Virus record (IMG/VR): IMGVR_UViG_3300022745_000098
Coordinates: 1 to 36,872 of that record
Source of the DNA: a virus
DNA length: 36,872 bases
Strand: one strand, 5' to 3'
A model generated the notes under the pieces. That model searched no databases, was not told where the DNA came from, and was given only the letters and a program-made list of their open reading frames with translations. Position numbers and translations under genes: made by a program. Shown one piece after another: positions 1-36,872 of this stretch. Each line of letters begins with the position of its first letter. The stretch's first letter is position 1.

Positions 1-104
1 TAGCCGGAGCCGTAGCCGTAGCCGTAGCCGTCGCCGGAGCCGGAGCCGTAGCCGGAGCCGTAGCCGGAGCCGTCGCCGGAGCCGGAGCCGTCGCCGTAGC
101 TCAC
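1..104 (-). CDS. N-terminal part of a Gly-X repeat / coiled-coil protein (runs off the left edge)
   Basis: Reading leftward, GTG at 104-102 overlaps the TGA stop of the upstream gene (GTGA). The frame then encodes about 34 residues of alternating glycine and Tyr, Ser or Asp, with no stop before position 1. If the window is circular, the next codon is made of bases 36872, 1 and 2 (TAC, Tyr). The frame then joins exactly to the open frame ending at 36545, giving a protein of about 143 residues: a flexible Gly-X head followed by a charged coiled coil. The function is unknown. The N-terminal repeat is low complexity and would be disordered or sticky. The GTGA coupling and the position in the recombination operon support expression. 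The join is inferred, not seen directly. Confidence 0.55.
   Translation of the reverse strand, partial: MSYGDGSGSGDGSGYGSGYGSGSGDGYGYGYGSG
3..98. repeat. Hexanucleotide tandem repeat (GCCGNN)16
   Basis: Sixteen uninterrupted 6-bp units of form gcc+gta, gcc+gga or gcc+gtc. On the minus strand each unit is a constant GGC (Gly) plus TAC (Tyr), TCC (Ser) or GAC (Asp). All unit differences fall in the second codon and change the amino acid. Gain or loss of units keeps the frame, so length variation in the encoded protein would be tolerated. Confidence 0.9.
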
Positions 105-418
105 GGCTTCCACGCCGAGGCTCCTTCGATCTGCTTCGCGGCATCGGCCGAGCACGGGAGGATCTCGATCCAGCCCTTGAGGCGGTGACCGTCGACGGAC
201 GCCGCGATCGCGCTGTTCGCCGCGTCGAGGCCCTTCGTCGCGATCTCGCTCAGCGTGTTCGCGCCGCGCCAGCGCCAGAGGCGGCGCGCGCCGTCGAGCA
301 CGACCTCGTCACCCTCCCTCGAGCGGAGCGTGCCGAAGTGCACGCCCGCGCTGAACGTGCGCACGATCACCTTCTGGGACTGGGTCTTCTTCGTCGCGGT
401 CTTCTTCTTCGTCGCCAT
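101..418 (-). CDS. DUF6948-like small phage protein
   Basis: A 105-residue protein with a lysine/threonine-rich N-terminus, then a compact domain whose core (VIVRTFSAGVHFG, a following VVLDGARRLWRWRGA, and a late IEILPCSADAAK) resembles the DUF6948 family found in many phages. No activity is known for that family. Two in-frame ATGs exist at 424 and 418. The AGGAG at 425-429 touches the first but lies six bases from the second, so 418 is the better start. It sits between the SSB-like gene upstream and the Gly-X repeat gene, which it overlaps by GTGA at its stop. The 108-bp gap upstream (419-526) holds only the ribosome site as far as I can see. Confidence 0.75.
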   Translation of the reverse strand: MATKKKTATKKTQSQKVIVRTFSAGVHFGTLRSREGDEVVLDGARRLWRWRGANTLSEIATKGLDAANSAIAASVDGHRLKGWIEILPCSADAAKQIEGASAWKP

Positions 419-526
419 GGTCATCTCCTGTGGAGTGAGAAATAGAGCCGGTGCTGGGCACCTACCGGCGGAGGCCCGAACCCGAACGCGCGCGAGGAGG
501 GTGCGCGGCGCGGGTGCCCGGAGGGG

Positions 527-3253: not shown

Positions 3254-3595
3254 ATGCGAACCGCTCCCGTTGTCCTCCTCGCCTTCTGCTTCGTCGCATG
3301 TGGCCACGACGCGCAGCTCCGCCGAGAGCGCTTGGCGTCGCCCGACTGTCAGCGCGCCGGAGCGGACCCTGAGACGTGCGGGGGCCTTGGCGAGGCGAAA
3401 GCGTCGGCTGCGCGGGGCCCCAGCACTGGCGATGTGGTGCTTGAGGCCGTTGGCGCTGGACTCAGAGGGTTCGCCGAGGGAGCTCGCTCGTCGTCGGCAC
3501 CCACCGGCTGCGTGAACAGCTACGGCTGCCAGTACGGCTACGTCTGCCTGCTCCCGCAGGGCCAGACGTCCGGCGTCTGCGTGAAGCCGAACTAG
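3254..3595 (+). CDS. Secreted/outer-membrane lipoprotein, probable lysogenic cargo (moron)
   Basis: A 113-residue protein starting with a short signal peptide (MRTAPVVLLAFCFVAC). The lipobox FVAC puts the lipidated cysteine at residue 16. The mature part ends in a Cys-rich segment with GCVNSYGCQYGYVC and a final SGVCVKP, suggesting a small disulfide-rich domain outside the cytoplasm. It is the only rightward gene among the leftward regulatory and recombination genes and stands alone, which is typical of cargo genes expressed from a prophage. Its stop and that of the convergent ImmA-like gene share the palindrome CTAG (3592-3595). The function is unknown; candidates are superinfection exclusion or alteration of the host surface. 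Confidence 0.75.
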   Translation: MRTAPVVLLAFCFVACGHDAQLRRERLASPDCQRAGADPETCGGLGEAKASAARGPSTGDVVLEAVGAGLRGFAEGARSSSAPTGCVNSYGCQYGYVCLLPQGQTSGVCVKPN

Positions 3596-4215
3596 CCCAC
3601 CACGTCGAGCACGACCCGCTCCGGGTCATCCGAGAGCCGCGTCTTCCGCACGCCCGGGATGTCTTTGCCCACGAGCTTCCTGACCGAGAGCGGCCACCGG
3701 AAGTCCTCCGGGCCACGCACGTAGACCCGGGCTGGCGTCACCACGGCTCGGGGGATGCTGAGCACCTCCGCCAGGCGCAGCGCCGCCCACGTCTGCGTTG
3801 CCACCACCTCGTCGGCGAGCTCCTCATGGGTAACGCCGGCCCGTACGAAGGCCGCCACCGCAGGCGCAGGGGCCATCAGTGCCGCCGCGATCTGGTCGCA
3901 CACCTGCTCGAGACGAGGGCCGCGGAAGCCCTGCTCCTGGCAGATGATGTGCCCGAGCTCGTGGCCGATGCAGAAGGCCGCGTACTCCGGCGCGAGCTTG
4001 CGGGAGAGACCGATCCGGCGCTCGCCATTGATGACGAACGTGGAGGCTACCGCGCCCGCCAGAGACGAGCGCTCGATGGCATTCGGGCCGAGGATGGCGC
4101 GGGCGAGCTTGAACGTGGACACCGGCTCGGACGGGTCGAACCCGAGGCGTTCGTAGGTGGCGATCGCAAGCCCTTCGACCGAGGAGACGTCCATCTCCCT
4201 TGGTTCTCCCTCCAT
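3592..4215 (-). CDS. ImmA/IrrE-family metalloprotease (antirepressor protease)
   Basis: A 207-residue protein with the zinc-protease motif H85-E-L-G-H89 in CIGHELGHIICQ and a downstream LEQVCDQIAAALMAP block. That block matches the ExxANxFAAxLLMP pattern of ImmA/IrrE proteins, with E103 as the likely third ligand. In known mobile elements ImmA cleaves the neighbouring HTH repressor to trigger induction. The repressor gene here lies 53 bp upstream on the same strand. The start at 4215 has no good ribosome site; ATG at 4194 (residue 8), just after AAGGGAG, is an alternative. The C-terminal 60 residues are not recognised. Confidence 0.85.
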   Translation of the reverse strand: MEGEPREMDVSSVEGLAIATYERLGFDPSEPVSTFKLARAILGPNAIERSSLAGAVASTFVINGERRIGLSRKLAPEYAAFCIGHELGHIICQEQGFRGPRLEQVCDQIAAALMAPAPAVAAFVRAGVTHEELADEVVATQTWAALRLAEVLSIPRAVVTPARVYVRGPEDFRWPLSVRKLVGKDIPGVRKTRLSDDPERVVLDVVG

Positions 4216-4229
4216 CCGAGGGGACCGGC

Positions 4230-4249
4230 CATACCCCCTGAGGGGTATG
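4230..4249. promoter_or_regulatory. Perfect 8-bp stem-loop between repressor and protease genes
   Basis: CATACCCC (4230-4237), loop CTGA, GGGGTATG (4242-4249). It lies in the 53-bp gap between the repressor stop (4269) and the protease start (4215). There is no T-run on either side, so it is not a classic terminator. It could be an attenuating hairpin that lowers protease expression, or an operator. Inference only. Confidence 0.5.
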
Positions 4250-4268
4250 TGGTGCAGTTAGGATCTGG

Positions 4269-4835
4269 TCAGGTCCGGCGTCGCTTGCGGTCTTCGACCG
4301 GATCGTCCGTCATGACGTGAGCGATGCGCTTGCCCTTCCGAGCAGCCAGCTCCTCCTGGATGCGCGCGTTCCAGTGACTGGCAGGGATGAAGCTGCCGCG
4401 GTGCTTGAACGCCTCGCGGGCCAGCGCGTCGGAAATCTCCGCGACCACGGCTGTCGGCGTTCCCGTCGGCCATTCGAAGCGCTCGAGCGCCTGTTGTGCC
4501 TGCGCGGACATGACGACTTCCTGAGTGAACGACGTCGGCGCAGAACGGGCCGGGTCCGGCGCCCGCAGCGGCATGTCCTCTCCGCCCATCAGCCAGTCCA
4601 CGGAGACGCCTGCCGCCTCGGCGAGCCTCTGGACCACGTCGATCTTCGCCGTCGTGGCTTCGCCTTTCTTGTGCTTGGTGCGCAGCGCGCCGATGTAGCT
4701 CTCGCTGACGCTCGCTGCGCGGCACCACGCGCGCTCTGACGCGAACGTTCCGCGCGCGAGCACCTCGTCGAGGCGCGAGAGCATCTTGCCAAGATCCCGA
4801 GTCACCTCGTGAGCTTCGCACGCATGGCTACGCAC
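4269..4835 (-). CDS. HTH repressor (Xre-like, CI/ImmR role)
   Basis: About 188 residues. A helix-turn-helix domain (RAWCRAASVSESYIGALR, then KIDVVQRLAEAAGVSVDWL) occupies roughly residues 17-85. The C-terminal part (from about residue 90) is helical and lacks any S24/LexA-type self-cleavage motif. That fits a repressor inactivated by the ImmA-like protease encoded next to it. It is divergent from a Cro-like gene across an operator dyad. The start is uncertain: GTG 4835 is given; GTG 4805 and ATG 4784 would shorten it, and ATG 4883 would extend it into the operator. None has a strong ribosome site, so the message may be leaderless. Confidence 0.75.
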   Translation of the reverse strand: MRSHACEAHEVTRDLGKMLSRLDEVLARGTFASERAWCRAASVSESYIGALRTKHKKGEATTAKIDVVQRLAEAAGVSVDWLMGGEDMPLRAPDPARSAPTSFTQEVVMSAQAQQALERFEWPTGTPTAVVAEISDALAREAFKHRGSFIPASHWNARIQEELAARKGKRIAHVMTDDPVEDRKRRRT

Positions 4836-4851
4836 GTCACTGCTCTCTGCA

Positions 4852-4880
4852 TTGACTATGCTCGTAATCTCAGCTACGTG
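4852..4880 (+). promoter_or_regulatory. Putative rightward promoter (leaderless cro-like transcript)
   Basis: TTGACT (4852-4857), 17 bases, then TACGTG (4875-4880), the same geometry as the leftward promoter near 3150. A start about 7-10 bases downstream would fall at or just before the ATG at 4891, and no ribosome site precedes that ATG, so a leaderless message is plausible. The -10 is weak. Confidence 0.4.
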
Positions 4881-4888
4881 CATAGTCA
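4853..4888. promoter_or_regulatory. Operator dyad in the repressor/cro intergenic region
   Basis: A perfect 9-bp inverted repeat: TGACTATGC (4853-4861) and GCATAGTCA (4880-4888), separated by 18 bp (4862-4879), so the arm centres are 27 bp apart. It overlaps the putative -35 and the region just after the putative -10 of the rightward promoter, as expected for a repressor or Cro site controlling both divergent genes. The half site TAGTCA recurs near 3170 and 5160. Confidence 0.65.
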
Positions 4889-4890
4889 GC

Positions 4891-5139
4891 ATGAGCACCC
4901 TCGCGGAACGGTTGAAGTGGGCGCGTGAAGCTGCCGGGCTGACGGCTCGAAAGCTGGATCGGCTGGCGAACCTGACGGCGGGGCACACGACCGCGATCGA
5001 GGCTGGCCGGCGGGCCGATCCGAGCATGAGCACCGTGACGGCGCTGGCTGACGCGCTGCGCGTGCCGCTCGAGTGGCTGGCCTCCGGCGACGGCACCGCG
5101 CCGTCGATGAAGCGTCTTCGCGCGCAGCATGCTGCCTAA
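4891..5139 (+). CDS. Small HTH (Xre/Cro-like) regulator
   Basis: An 82-residue protein that is essentially one HTH_3/Xre domain: LAERLKWAREAAGLTARKLD, the recognition-helix region ANLTAGHTTAIEAGRR, and MSTVTALADALRVPLEWL. It is divergent from the repressor gene, with the operator dyad between them, the layout of a CI/Cro switch; it probably favours the lytic state. ATG 4891 is chosen because the domain begins there; an in-frame ATG at 4852 would start inside the operator. No ribosome site is visible. Confidence 0.85.
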   Translation: MSTLAERLKWAREAAGLTARKLDRLANLTAGHTTAIEAGRRADPSMSTVTALADALRVPLEWLASGDGTAPSMKRLRAQHAA

Positions 5140-10591: not shown

Positions 10592-10980
10592 TCACCTGGC
10601 TCCAGTTCTTCGAGCCCGTGCCCGTCCCGCAGTACGGCGAGCCCGTGTCGCGCCTGTTCGTCGCCGAGGAGGGCTGGACCATCAGCGCCGGACCGGCTGG
10701 CGTCATGCTGCTCCGGGGCGACGACGTGTTCACCATCCACGGCGTTCGGTACGCCGCGAAGCACACCGCGCCCGTCGTGGCGCCTGGCATCCCTCAGGAG
10801 ACAACCGATGATTCCCAGACCGACGGACGAGCGAGTGATCTTGCAGCCCCTGCCCCCGGAGGATACGACGGCGGGGGGCATCTTCATCCCGCAGACGGGC
10901 CGGAAGCGTACGCACCGCGGCCGGGTGCTGGCGGTGGGACGGGGCAAGGTCACCGAGCGCGGCGTTCGCGTCGAGCCTAG
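10588..10980 (+). CDS. Small hypothetical protein overlapping groES out of frame
   Basis: A 130-residue open frame starting at an ATGA overlap. Residues 1-72 look like a real small beta-rich domain (MITWLQFFEPVPVPQYGEP, LFVAEEGWTISAGPAG). From about residue 75 it is read out of frame through the groES gene and becomes low-complexity Gly/Ala/Arg, so that part is probably a by-product of the overlap. The 173-bp overlap is the longest same-strand overlap in the window. Either the tail is tolerated, or a stop was lost by mutation or sequencing error near 10800. No family recognised. Confidence 0.5.
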   Translation: MITWLQFFEPVPVPQYGEPVSRLFVAEEGWTISAGPAGVMLLRGDDVFTIHGVRYAAKHTAPVVAPGIPQETTDDSQTDGRASDLAAPAPGGYDGGGHLHPADGPEAYAPRPGAGGGTGQGHRARRSRRA

Positions 10981-11098
10981 CTTCGGGGTCGGCGACCTCG
11001 TGCTCTACGCCGAGTACAACAACGAGCAGCCCGTGACGCGTGAGCCGGAAGGGCCCGTCGTGCTGCTCATCGACGACGTGCTGGCGGTGGTGGAGTGA
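10808..11098 (+). CDS. groES: Phage-encoded GroES-like co-chaperonin (Cpn10)
   Basis: A 96-residue protein of normal Cpn10 length, aligning by eye along its whole length with GroES: RPTDERVILQPLPPEDTTAGG at the N-terminus, the mobile loop (residues 17-33) with the GroEL-binding GGIFIP, RGRVLAVGRGKV, VGDLVLYAEYNN, and the C-terminal IDDVLAVVE strand. It would cap the host GroEL and help fold phage proteins, as gp31 does for the T4 capsid; no GroEL is encoded here. ATG 10808 has AGGAG seven bases upstream. It sits directly before the large terminase gene, so it is expressed with packaging and head genes. Confidence 0.93.
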   Translation: MIPRPTDERVILQPLPPEDTTAGGIFIPQTGRKRTHRGRVLAVGRGKVTERGVRVEPSFGVGDLVLYAEYNNEQPVTREPEGPVVLLIDDVLAVVE

Positions 11099-34141: not shown

Positions 34142-34392
34142 GCACGTGTATGGCGTACGAGCACCGCAAGCCACTCCTGACCGAAGCCCGGCTCAGCGCC
34201 GGGACGCTCTCCCGCTTCTGCACGCCGCTGACGTGGCCGGAGATCCTTCGTCTGGAACGCCGCCCTCGCGCGCTCTGGTGGACGTACGCCGTGGGCGACG
34301 CGGAGGACAGGGGCCTGCTCCGGTGGCTTCGGAACCGCAGGGCGTGGACGCTCACCGATGCCGGGCGCGAGCTCGTGCGGGGGGTGTCGTGA
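34138..34392 (+). CDS. Small protein with winged-helix-like end
   Basis: An 84-residue basic protein. The C-terminal part (RGLLRWLRNRRAWTLTDAGR) resembles the wing and last helix of winged-helix proteins, where a LTDxGRxL phrase is common; the N-terminal part is not recognised. It is coupled by ATGA to the fibre gene and by GTGA to the lysozyme gene. A DNA-binding role is possible, but its place among fibre and lysis genes gives no support. Confidence 0.55.
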   Translation: MSTCMAYEHRKPLLTEARLSAGTLSRFCTPLTWPEILRLERRPRALWWTYAVGDAEDRGLLRWLRNRRAWTLTDAGRELVRGVS

Positions 34393-35126
34393 GGCCGGCG
34401 GTCCGGGCGGCCTTCGTGGCCTTCAGTGCGCCGCTCGAGGGCGTCGTCCCGTGGATGTACGCCGACGTCCGGGGCCTCGTGACGACGGCCATCGGCATCC
34501 TCATCGACCCCGTGTCCTACGCGCTGGCGCTCCCGTGGGTCCGCCGCGACGGGTCCCCGGCGACGCCTGCGGAGGTCGTGGCAGACTGGCAACGCATCAA
34601 GGGCGACGCGAGCATGGCCAGGCTCGGGCACCGCGCGGCCGAACGAGTGACGTCACTCCGGCTCACCCCCGAGGGCGTCGAGGCGGTCGTCCTCCGCAAG
34701 CTCGACGAGCTCGACGCGCAGCTCGCGCAGCGGTGGCAGGAGTACCCGACGTGGTGCAGCGACGCGCAGCTCGCGACGCTCTCGATGGCGTGGGCGATGG
34801 GCGCAGGCTTCGACTTCCCGCGGTGGGACGCGGCGGTCAGGCGCGGACTCTGGCTCGTGGCGGCGCAGGAGTGCACCATCAGCGAGCGAGGGAACCCCGG
34901 CGTCGCGCCGAGGAACCAGCGGAACCGGCTCCTCTTCGGAGCCGCGCACCGCGTGCAGCAGGGCGGGCTTGACCCGGACACCATCTGGGGATGGCTGCAC
35001 CCGGATGCGCCGACCCTGCCCGAGCTCCCCGGCGAGACCGACGGCGGCGACTCCAGGCGGGACGCTACGAGCGAGGCCGTGGCGCAGGCGGCGGGTGATG
35101 CGGTGATGGGGAGGGCTTCGGAGTGA
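34389..35126 (+). CDS. Endolysin, T4-lysozyme-like (GH24-type) muramidase
   Basis: A 245-residue protein. The N-terminal region carries E17-G, Y24, D26, G29 and T32 (LEGVVPWMYADVRGLVTTAI), with exactly the spacing of the catalytic Glu11-Asp20-Thr26 triad of T4 lysozyme. Helical segments follow, including ATLSMAWAMGAGFDFPRWD and GLWLVAAQECTISERGNP, and PRNQRNRLLFGAAHRV near the end. It would cut the glycan strands of peptidoglycan for lysis. No signal peptide is visible, so release depends on a holin. GTG 34389 is in a GTGA overlap. The 3' end overlaps the opposite-strand gene by 62 bases. Confidence 0.88.
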   Translation: MRPAVRAAFVAFSAPLEGVVPWMYADVRGLVTTAIGILIDPVSYALALPWVRRDGSPATPAEVVADWQRIKGDASMARLGHRAAERVTSLRLTPEGVEAVVLRKLDELDAQLAQRWQEYPTWCSDAQLATLSMAWAMGAGFDFPRWDAAVRRGLWLVAAQECTISERGNPGVAPRNQRNRLLFGAAHRVQQGGLDPDTIWGWLHPDAPTLPELPGETDGGDSRRDATSEAVAQAAGDAVMGRASE

Positions 35127-35325
35127 GTCGCACGACCCACCCGCCGAACTTGCGAGCGACGAGGCGAGCCTCACTCCGCGTGAACCTGACCGCGTTACGC
35201 TGCTGAAGAACGCACCCACCTCTCACGTCCGGGTTCCGAACGTACCCCATCACCGCACGGCTCGACTTCCAGCCGTCGTGAACGAAGCGGTAGCACTTCA
35301 CGACGAAGCGCCTACGCTCACCCAT
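35065..35325 (-). CDS. Small basic protein, last gene of the leftward operon
   Basis: An 86-residue basic protein: a beta-rich start (RRFVVKCYRFVHDGWKSSRA), then AVRFTRSEARLVARKFGGWV, which looks like a strand-helix unit, and a Pro/Ser-rich tail. No family recognised. ATG 35325 has AGGAG six bases upstream. The tail is read antisense to the end of the endolysin gene. In circular terms this is the far end of the leftward operon that starts near 3150. Confidence 0.65.
   Translation of the reverse strand: MGERRRFVVKCYRFVHDGWKSSRAVMGYVRNPDVRGGCVLQQRNAVRFTRSEARLVARKFGGWVVRLTPKPSPSPHHPPPAPRPRS
35119..35178. terminator. Long-loop inverted repeat at the convergent operon ends
   Basis: CGGAGTGAG (35119-35127) and CTCACTCCG (35170-35178) are perfect 9-bp arms separated by 42 bases. 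They enclose the endolysin stop and lie inside the convergent small gene. With no T-run it is only a candidate for a bidirectional stop of the rightward late and leftward early transcripts. Confidence 0.3.
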
Positions 35326-35812
35326 CCCCGTCTCCTAGCACGGCCCGCAGGCGGCAGTCGGGGGCGTGGCCTTTATGGACGAAGCAGCCGCAGAACGGGC
35401 AGCAGTCACAGCAGGTTTCGCAGGACGCCCACTCCACGCTCCGCAGCACCTCCCTCGCCTCCGCAAGCCTGGCCTCGGCGGCTTCGGCGCGGGCCTCGGC
35501 ATCCCACATGAGTTCCTGCATGGCACTCAGCTCTAGAAGTCGGGCCTCGGCAAGCTCCAGCGCGCCGCTCAACTTGGGATCGGACATGCTTTCCATGTTC
35601 GCACGACATGCGCTGCACGCGTCACCAGTGCCGTCGCCACACCACTTGCAGTCGCGGTGCTCGTGGCACCATGCCATCGCCCTCGCCTCCAGGTCATCGC
35701 CCCCGTCTTTACGAGCCCCCTTGCATCCCGGGTGCAGCACGCCGCTCGGCACGTACGCGAGGCACGCTCCGCACGTCCACGAGGACAGTCGCGCGGTCTG
35801 GTCATCGCTCAT
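35318..35812 (-). CDS. Multi-zinc-ribbon-like small protein
   Basis: A 164-residue protein with three Cys clusters: CGAC with a later HPGC near the start, CHEHRDCKWCGDGTGDACSAC in the middle, and CETCCDCCPFCGC near the end. Between the last two lies a helix (LELAEARLLELSAMQELMWD). The CxxC pairs suggest zinc ribbons. No family recognised; helix plus ribbons resembles small phage adaptor or nucleic-acid-binding proteins. ATG 35812 overlaps the preceding gene and its stop overlaps the next. Confidence 0.7.
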   Translation of the reverse strand: MSDDQTARLSSWTCGACLAYVPSGVLHPGCKGARKDGGDDLEARAMAWCHEHRDCKWCGDGTGDACSACRANMESMSDPKLSGALELAEARLLELSAMQELMWDAEARAEAAEARLAEAREVLRSVEWASCETCCDCCPFCGCFVHKGHAPDCRLRAVLGDGDG

Positions 35813-36032
35813 CTTCGCCTACCTTCACGCCCTTCTTTAGGGCCTTCGCGATCTCGTCGTAGTACTCGCCGAGGGAGAGCCCTGACGAGTCCGCGCGCTT
35901 GCCTTCCGCCCTTAGCCACGCGACCACGCGCGCGATGGTCTCGCGCTCGCGTTCGTCGAGTTCTTTGATGCGACACCCCGGGCAGTACGGCACCGACGTG
36001 TGGTCCCCGCACTCCGTACACCGCTCACCCAT
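35802..36032 (-). CDS. Small zinc-ribbon-plus-helix protein
   Basis: A 76-residue protein. CTEC and CPGC (MGERCTECGDHTSVPYCPGC) form a compact zinc ribbon, followed by a charged helix (ELDERERETIARVVAWLRAE) and a second helix SLGEYYDEIAKALKK. The architecture is that of many small phage proteins of unknown role. ATG 36032 is set by GGAGG six bases upstream; a longer frame to 36068 lacks such a site. Confidence 0.7.
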   Translation of the reverse strand: MGERCTECGDHTSVPYCPGCRIKELDERERETIARVVAWLRAEGKRADSSGLSLGEYYDEIAKALKKGVKVGEDER

Positions 36033-36219
36033 CGCTCTCCTCCTCTCCGCCCTTGGGTGTGTACTCAACGACGCGCCACTCGCGATGCGGAACGAGCTTG
36101 CTCATCCCGTAACGAGACGCGCGCGCGTCCTTCCGGAGCTTGAACATCTTCTCCGTGCGCCACGCGTTGGCGCTGGTCTCGTGCCTCGACTCCACCACCC
36201 ACACCGAGCGGCGGGTCAC
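36025..36219 (-). CDS. Small basic hypothetical protein
   Basis: A 64-residue protein, probably a small beta/alpha fold (SVWVVESRHETSANAWRTEK, then HREWRVVEYTPKGG). No family recognised. GTG 36219 is chosen for its GTGA overlap with the upstream stop and GAGG six bases before it; a longer frame to 36294 would overlap the upstream gene more deeply. Confidence 0.6.
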   Translation of the reverse strand: MTRRSVWVVESRHETSANAWRTEKMFKLRKDARASRYGMSKLVPHREWRVVEYTPKGGEEESDG

Positions 36220-36548
36220 GGGGTGCCTCGCAGCCGGCAGCGGCGGCACACACCCGTCGCGCCGACGCTGTCCGGAGTCCGCAGCCGTCCACACTCGGTG
36301 CAGCGAGTCTCGGCTTCCGCCTCGGCCTGGATGCGCTGCATGACGCCCATGCGCTGGCCCCAGAGCCCGAGCGCGATGATGCCGGCGGCGATGGCGGCGC
36401 CCTCCTCATGGGCCTGGCGCAGCATGCAGCCGATGCAGCGCGAGAAGTCGTCGCACTCGCCCGGCGTCCGGCATCCCGTGTTGGACACGGGCCAATGCTT
36501 ACCGACGTGCAGCGTCGAGCGTCCCCAGCGGTCAGGGTGGAAGCTCAT
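36216..36548 (-). CDS. Small protein with C-terminal zinc ribbon
   Basis: A 110-residue protein. The first half has four spaced cysteines (GCRTPGECDDFSRCIGC) and the C-terminus a clear ribbon (CTECGRLRTPDSVG, then CRRC). Between them lies a hydrophobic helix (EGAAIAAGIIALGLWG) that may pack in the fold or touch a membrane. No family recognised. ATG 36548 follows AAGGGGGAG. It is directly downstream, in the leftward sense, of the coiled-coil gene ending at 36545. Confidence 0.65.
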   Translation of the reverse strand: MSFHPDRWGRSTLHVGKHWPVSNTGCRTPGECDDFSRCIGCMLRQAHEEGAAIAAGIIALGLWGQRMGVMQRIQAEAEAETRCTECGRLRTPDSVGATGVCRRCRLRGTP

Positions 36549-36872
36549 CGCTCCCCCTTCGCGGCGTCCAGGGCGGCGTCGAGCGCCGCTCTCGTCTCGT
36601 CGAGCACCCGCACCTCCTGCACACTGAGGTCCGGCTCCCACGGAGGCCGCATCGTCGCCACCTCGGCGGCCCGGTACGCCCTCGCCGCCTCGGCCACGGC
36701 GCGGAGCGCGGCGAATTCTCGGTCTGCCGCCTGGCACACGGCCCCGAGCGCCTCTCGGTTCTGCATGAGCAGGCGTTCGCGCTCAACACCACCGATGTGC
36801 ACGGCGAACTCGTCCCGCTCCTTCTCCAGCTCCCGCACGCGCTCCTCGGCGGCGCGGAGGCGGGAGAGGAGG
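36545..36872 (-). CDS. C-terminal part of the junction-spanning coiled-coil protein
   Basis: An open frame of 108 residues from the right edge to the stop at 36545, with no stop upstream within the window. It starts LLSRLRAAEERVRELEKERD, a clear coiled coil, continues with charged helices (NREALGAVCQAADREFAALR) and ends DETRAALDAALDAAKGER. If the ends of the window are joined, this frame continues exactly into the Gly-X repeat frame that begins at GTG 104. GTG 36838 is an internal alternative start but has no good ribosome site and would cut the coiled coil. No function recognised. Confidence 0.7.
   Translation of the reverse strand, partial: LLSRLRAAEERVRELEKERDEFAVHIGGVERERLLMQNREALGAVCQAADREFAALRAVAEAARAYRAAEVATMRPPWEPDLSVQEVRVLDETRAALDAALDAAKGER

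Follow-up and report, generated by a model that had tools for sequence, protein, structure and literature searches.

Known counterparts of the locus analysed here are found in cultured phages, for example Chlorobiaceae CV-1-33, Iodobacter PhiPLPE, Pectobacterium Taid and Vibrio IKEMa6-1, in which a gene of the DUF6948 family (PF22253) is followed by an overlapping frame that codes for a Gly-[Ser/Tyr/Asp] array. The same arrangement was found at the left edge of the window, which is the whole of the virus record IMGVR_UViG_3300022745_000098 (36,872 bp). Positions 1-100 are occupied by a tandem array with a 6/12-bp unit (Tandem Repeats Finder, 8.3 copies of 12 bp), which reads GGC TCC / GGC TAC / GGC GAC on the minus strand, codes for Gly-[Ser/Tyr/Asp] and is truncated at the left record edge. 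The 5' part of the array gene lies at 1-104 on the minus strand, and its translation from GTG 104 is VSYGDGSGSGDGSGYGSGYGSGSGDGYGYGYGSG. Two marks of the gene pair are present, as the GTG overlaps the TGA stop codon of the DUF6948 gene by 4 nt (GTGA) and every X residue in the window's array is Ser, Tyr or Asp.

The DUF6948 gene itself is at 101-424 on the minus strand. Its protein scored 91.1 bits with PF22253 over residues 17-99, above the gathering cut-off of 27 bits, and an AlphaFold2 model built from an alignment with 44 relatives had a pLDDT of 92.3. Nearly all the PDB matches listed for this model were Sm/LSm proteins (Foldseek E 0.009 at best, VIA-align Z of 7.4 at most), and one of them, 3by7, has been described as structurally similar to Sm/LSm-like RNA-binding proteins. 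The fold is predicted to be Sm-like, with moderate scores that carry no functional meaning.

The pair was then compared across 123 DUF6948 loci, 80 from IMG/VR and 43 from GTDB. A Gly-X array was found near DUF6948 in 117 of the 123, almost always immediately downstream, and 98 arrays began within 350 bp when a stricter parse was used. For most of 107 loci, the start of the array frame lay inside the DUF6948 stop or overlapped it. A single fused frame for the array and DUF6948 was considered and rejected, since none of these 107 loci had the two fused in frame. Arrays in relatives had a median length of 66 residues (range 16-138), compared to the approximately 33 array residues left in the window. 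Ser, Tyr or Asp filled about 91% of the X positions in 106 arrays, while codon choice varied among the phages (TCC/TCT, TAC/TAT, GAC/GAT and GGC/GGG/GGT/GGA). The retention of these three residues with differing codons indicates a protein-level constraint on the array. A DUF6948 gene with a Gly-[Ser/Tyr/Asp] gene of widely variable length, mostly with overlapped start and stop, was seen both in phages and in prophage-bearing contigs and with many hosts (window 1-424; L030-L152).

A preliminary description of this DNA had proposed that the two ends of the window are joined by one gene of about 143 codons, made of the Gly-X array and a coiled coil, and that relatives with two separate genes would speak against it. 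Of 77 uncut array genes, 72 ended 0-9 residues past the array, four of the other five carried a different C-terminal domain in common, and one was doubtful. Not one of the 77 was seen fused to a coiled coil, and no unbroken homologue of the proposed gene was found among the relatives checked. The single gene is, therefore, not supported by the family pattern, and the outcome comes close to what the description itself had named as its refutation. The extra C-terminal domain, of about 160 residues with a common FAHG-type motif, was seen in L069, L113, L123 and L136 and also in L025 and L028. The loci that carry it are largely gut- or rumen-derived, and the L025 domain, the sole one searched, had no Pfam match.

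The observation behind the proposed gene was literally correct. The minus frame that starts at GTG 104 runs off at bases 2-1, continues for 108 further codons and reaches a TGA at 36545 in the same phase and without a stop. The junction codon on the minus strand, read from bases 2, 1 and 36872, is indeed TAC. TAC would continue the Gly-X pattern as had been claimed, but this continuation hangs on one base, the C at 36872. The array at 1-100 has no stops in any minus frame, and, at the right edge, open stretches of 29, 108 and 112 codons occur in the three minus frames. Since the array is stop-free and two of these three frames are open for at least 108 codons, two of the three registers give a similar joined frame. 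Also, because the array unit is 6 bp, the loss or gain of any number of units leaves the phase unchanged. The in-phase, open join is not above chance and has near-zero weight as evidence for one gene.

The record ends were searched for other signs of closure. No terminal direct or inverted repeats were found, with exact direct repeats of at least 10 bp sought, and the window consequently lacks the direct terminal repeat of at least 20 bp by which CheckV and IMG/VR recognize a complete circular contig. Neither an array remnant nor an end overlap was found at the right edge, neither a tRNA nor an Rfam element was found at the record ends, and no close relative was found that spans the exact 36872/1 junction. 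Promoter and terminator scans gave nothing informative.

Next, the position of contig breaks was compared among the relatives. A contig ended within 400 bp of DUF6948 on the array side at 29 of the 123 loci and on the opposite side at 4 (binomial p 1e-5), and the array-side breaks were mostly inside the array itself. The left edge of the window is a break of this kind. Seventeen virus records ended at the array. Seven of them carried further Gly-X array at the opposite end, in an orientation that fits a circle, and above 30 kb the proportion with array at both ends was 7 of 11. Two of these seven records had ends that overlapped exactly, by 114 and 127 bp, and the other five did not. The seven records are, therefore, circular maps that were cut at the array.

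The preliminary description had also argued that a leftward operon closes across the join toward an endolysin gene, and this logic is sound. On the left side, the operon comprises, all on the minus strand, a gene for a RecT-like annealing protein (1670-2479; phrog_561, E 6.5e-27), a PD-(D/E)XK exonuclease gene (960-1673), a gene at 527-957, DUF6948 and the array, and it runs off at base 1. The start of the 527-957 gene at 957 is our own reading (an ATG upstream of 952). A homologue of this gene lies in the same place in L041/G007 (tblastn, 33.8%, E 9e-21 in L041), with a weak one in G001 (21%, E 2e-4). On the right side, an open frame at 36545-36871 on the minus strand, for which a coiled coil was predicted by eye, enters at the edge and overlaps the next gene by 4 nt. 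This next gene, also leftward, is cysteine-rich and zinc-ribbon-like (36216-36548), and it is followed by four overlapping leftward genes within 35065-36219 (36025-36219, 35802-36032, 35318-35812 and 35065-35325; overlaps of 4, 8, 11 and 8 nt). The operon ends head-on against the endolysin region, a convergent plus-strand frame at 34146-35126 without a family match, so that "endolysin", a name taken from the preliminary description, is putative. The overlaps of 4-11 nt among the six right-end genes leave no space within the window for their promoter, which is thus expected beyond 36872. An operon that is open at both edges favours a circular map in which the leftward operon crosses the join. 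The frame at 36545-36871, for which no homologue was found (INPHARED included), is probably a separate gene that starts at GTG 36838 or past the edge.

Alignment of portal and capsid proteins gave three relatives, G001, G002 and G003, and none in GTDB genomes. No near-identical or close IMG/VR record was found by exact DNA pattern or by the 527-952 protein, and INPHARED held no close relatives of the portal or of 36216-36548. Both record ends of G001 (IMGVR_UViG_3300021408_000140) lie in one 12-bp VxSA array of a DUF6745 gene (L004 1-196 and L006 12800-12878), though not in exact register; this is a further repeat gene in which an assembly was broken. G003 was considered as a bridge of the join and was set aside; its RecT and exonuclease genes are collinear with those of the window, but the matches listed at its left end included no clear homologue of the right-end genes of the window. 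A gene for a GroES-like co-chaperonin adjoins that for the large terminase in the window (10808-11098), with homologues in the same place in all three relatives. An ImmA/IrrE-like metalloprotease gene and divergent repressor-like genes at 3592-5139 are suggestive of a temperate phage; none of the window proteins tested matched an integrase. G001 has a tyrosine integrase gene followed by a tRNA-like sequence that may be an attachment site (L006 10817-11925; Rfam tRNA 29.1 bits, gathering score 29), and the position of the two inside the record is as expected of an unintegrated form.

Taken together, we consider it likely that the window is a near-complete tailed-phage genome, probably with a circular map, that was cut at a conserved Gly-X repeat gene and lacks sequence at the join. 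The assembler would have cut the record inside the hexanucleotide array coding for (Gly-Ser/Tyr/Asp)n, in the gene that immediately follows DUF6948 and is translationally coupled to it. What is most likely missing between 36872 and 1 is some of the array together with its stop codon, and the region in which the following leftward gene starts. The frame across the join would then be two genes, a short Gly-X protein that ends near the join and a coiled-coil protein (36545-36871) that comes next in the same leftward operon. The gap in the circle, from array lengths, is perhaps one to a few hundred bases; this size and the circularity of this genome are what we infer. The preliminary claim of circularity stands as far as circular mapping is concerned, supported by other evidence than the open join, namely the records with array at both ends, the ends of G001 and the operon open at both edges. 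Against an exact complete circle, the right edge has no array and the family pattern requires a stop after the array.

That exact circle, with 36872 and 1 adjacent and one gene of about 143 codons whose N-terminal half is Gly-X and whose other half is a coiled coil, appears improbable. It would account for the stop-free, in-phase join with TAC at the junction and for the open operon, but chance would give such phase and openness in two of three registers, no end overlap exists, and the 77 uncut relatives include no such fusion, with four or five carrying a different extra domain. A less remote alternative, though still an unlikely one, is a linear fragment whose left edge broke at the array and whose right edge is an unrelated break, with perhaps several kilobases missing. 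The right edge without array, the greater length of G001 (by 4 kb) and the 10 of 17 array-ended records without array at the far end are in its favour; these ten, like the window, could be plain fragments, which also counts against the near-complete genome that we prefer, as do the lack of an array remnant or end overlap at the right edge and the failure to find a close relative that spans the junction. Against a fragment, the core modules for replication, packaging and structure are present, and both edges hold parts of an apparently single leftward operon that ends opposite the late genes. Many tailed phages package linear DNA, and a linear virion genome whose unique physical ends lie here, such as terminal repeats or cohesive ends, would need no repeat in a trimmed record. 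We regard this as very improbable because the left edge falls within a coding tandem array, at a position where numerous unrelated contigs break, and the right-end operon would begin without a promoter.

The preliminary description had gone on from circularity to headful packaging. Terminal repeats in assemblies can be produced by circular templates as well as by concatemers of linear genomes (PMC8116208). A closed contig results whenever replication is circular or concatemeric, whatever the packaging type and, therefore, headful packaging does not follow from a contig that is closed or can be closed (PMC8116208). An assignment of packaging type from the large terminase was dropped because the comparisons were unusable; outside the group, the one phage match was KX853514 at 42%, and the PDB matches were marginal.

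These results show that, where an edge falls in a coding tandem repeat, ends that share a phase are an attractive but almost valueless indication that a genome is complete. The locus is a recurrent break site of phage assemblies and, therefore, many records without end repeats may be near-complete circles minus one repeat gene. Both DUF6948 and the repeat gene are conserved among phages whose hosts differ widely, and short-read data systematically cut the two short. This truncation may be why no paper naming DUF6948 was found in the literature searched. A tentative possibility is that the pair is a widespread and apparently undescribed one, in which an Sm-fold (LSm/Hfq-like) DUF6948 protein is translationally coupled to a low-complexity (Gly-Ser/Tyr/Asp)n protein that differs greatly in length between phages and resembles the [G/S]Y[G/S] low-complexity domains of condensate-forming RNA-binding proteins, and that these two proteins might assemble in infected cells to bind RNA.

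Among the systems compared, G001 shares with the window collinear capsid, portal, terminase and helicase genes (35-69% identity) and a record that ends within an early-operon tandem array, close to where that operon meets the late genes. In contrast to the window, the array of G001 lies in a DUF6745 gene and codes for VxSA repeats, G001 carries an integrase and a tRNA-like site, and no DUF6948 or RecT match was seen. The circular-map IMG/VR records L039 (37,300 bp), L084 (36,782 bp) and L041 (48,390 bp), among others, are of similar size to the window and likewise end inside a Gly-X array just downstream of DUF6948; L041 also has the 527-957 homologue upstream of DUF6948. These three records have array at both ends, with the exact overlaps in L039 and L084, whereas the window has it at one end only. 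In CV-1-33, PhiPLPE, Taid and IKEMa6-1, the array gene is whole and ends straight after the array, while that of the window is cut by the record edge.
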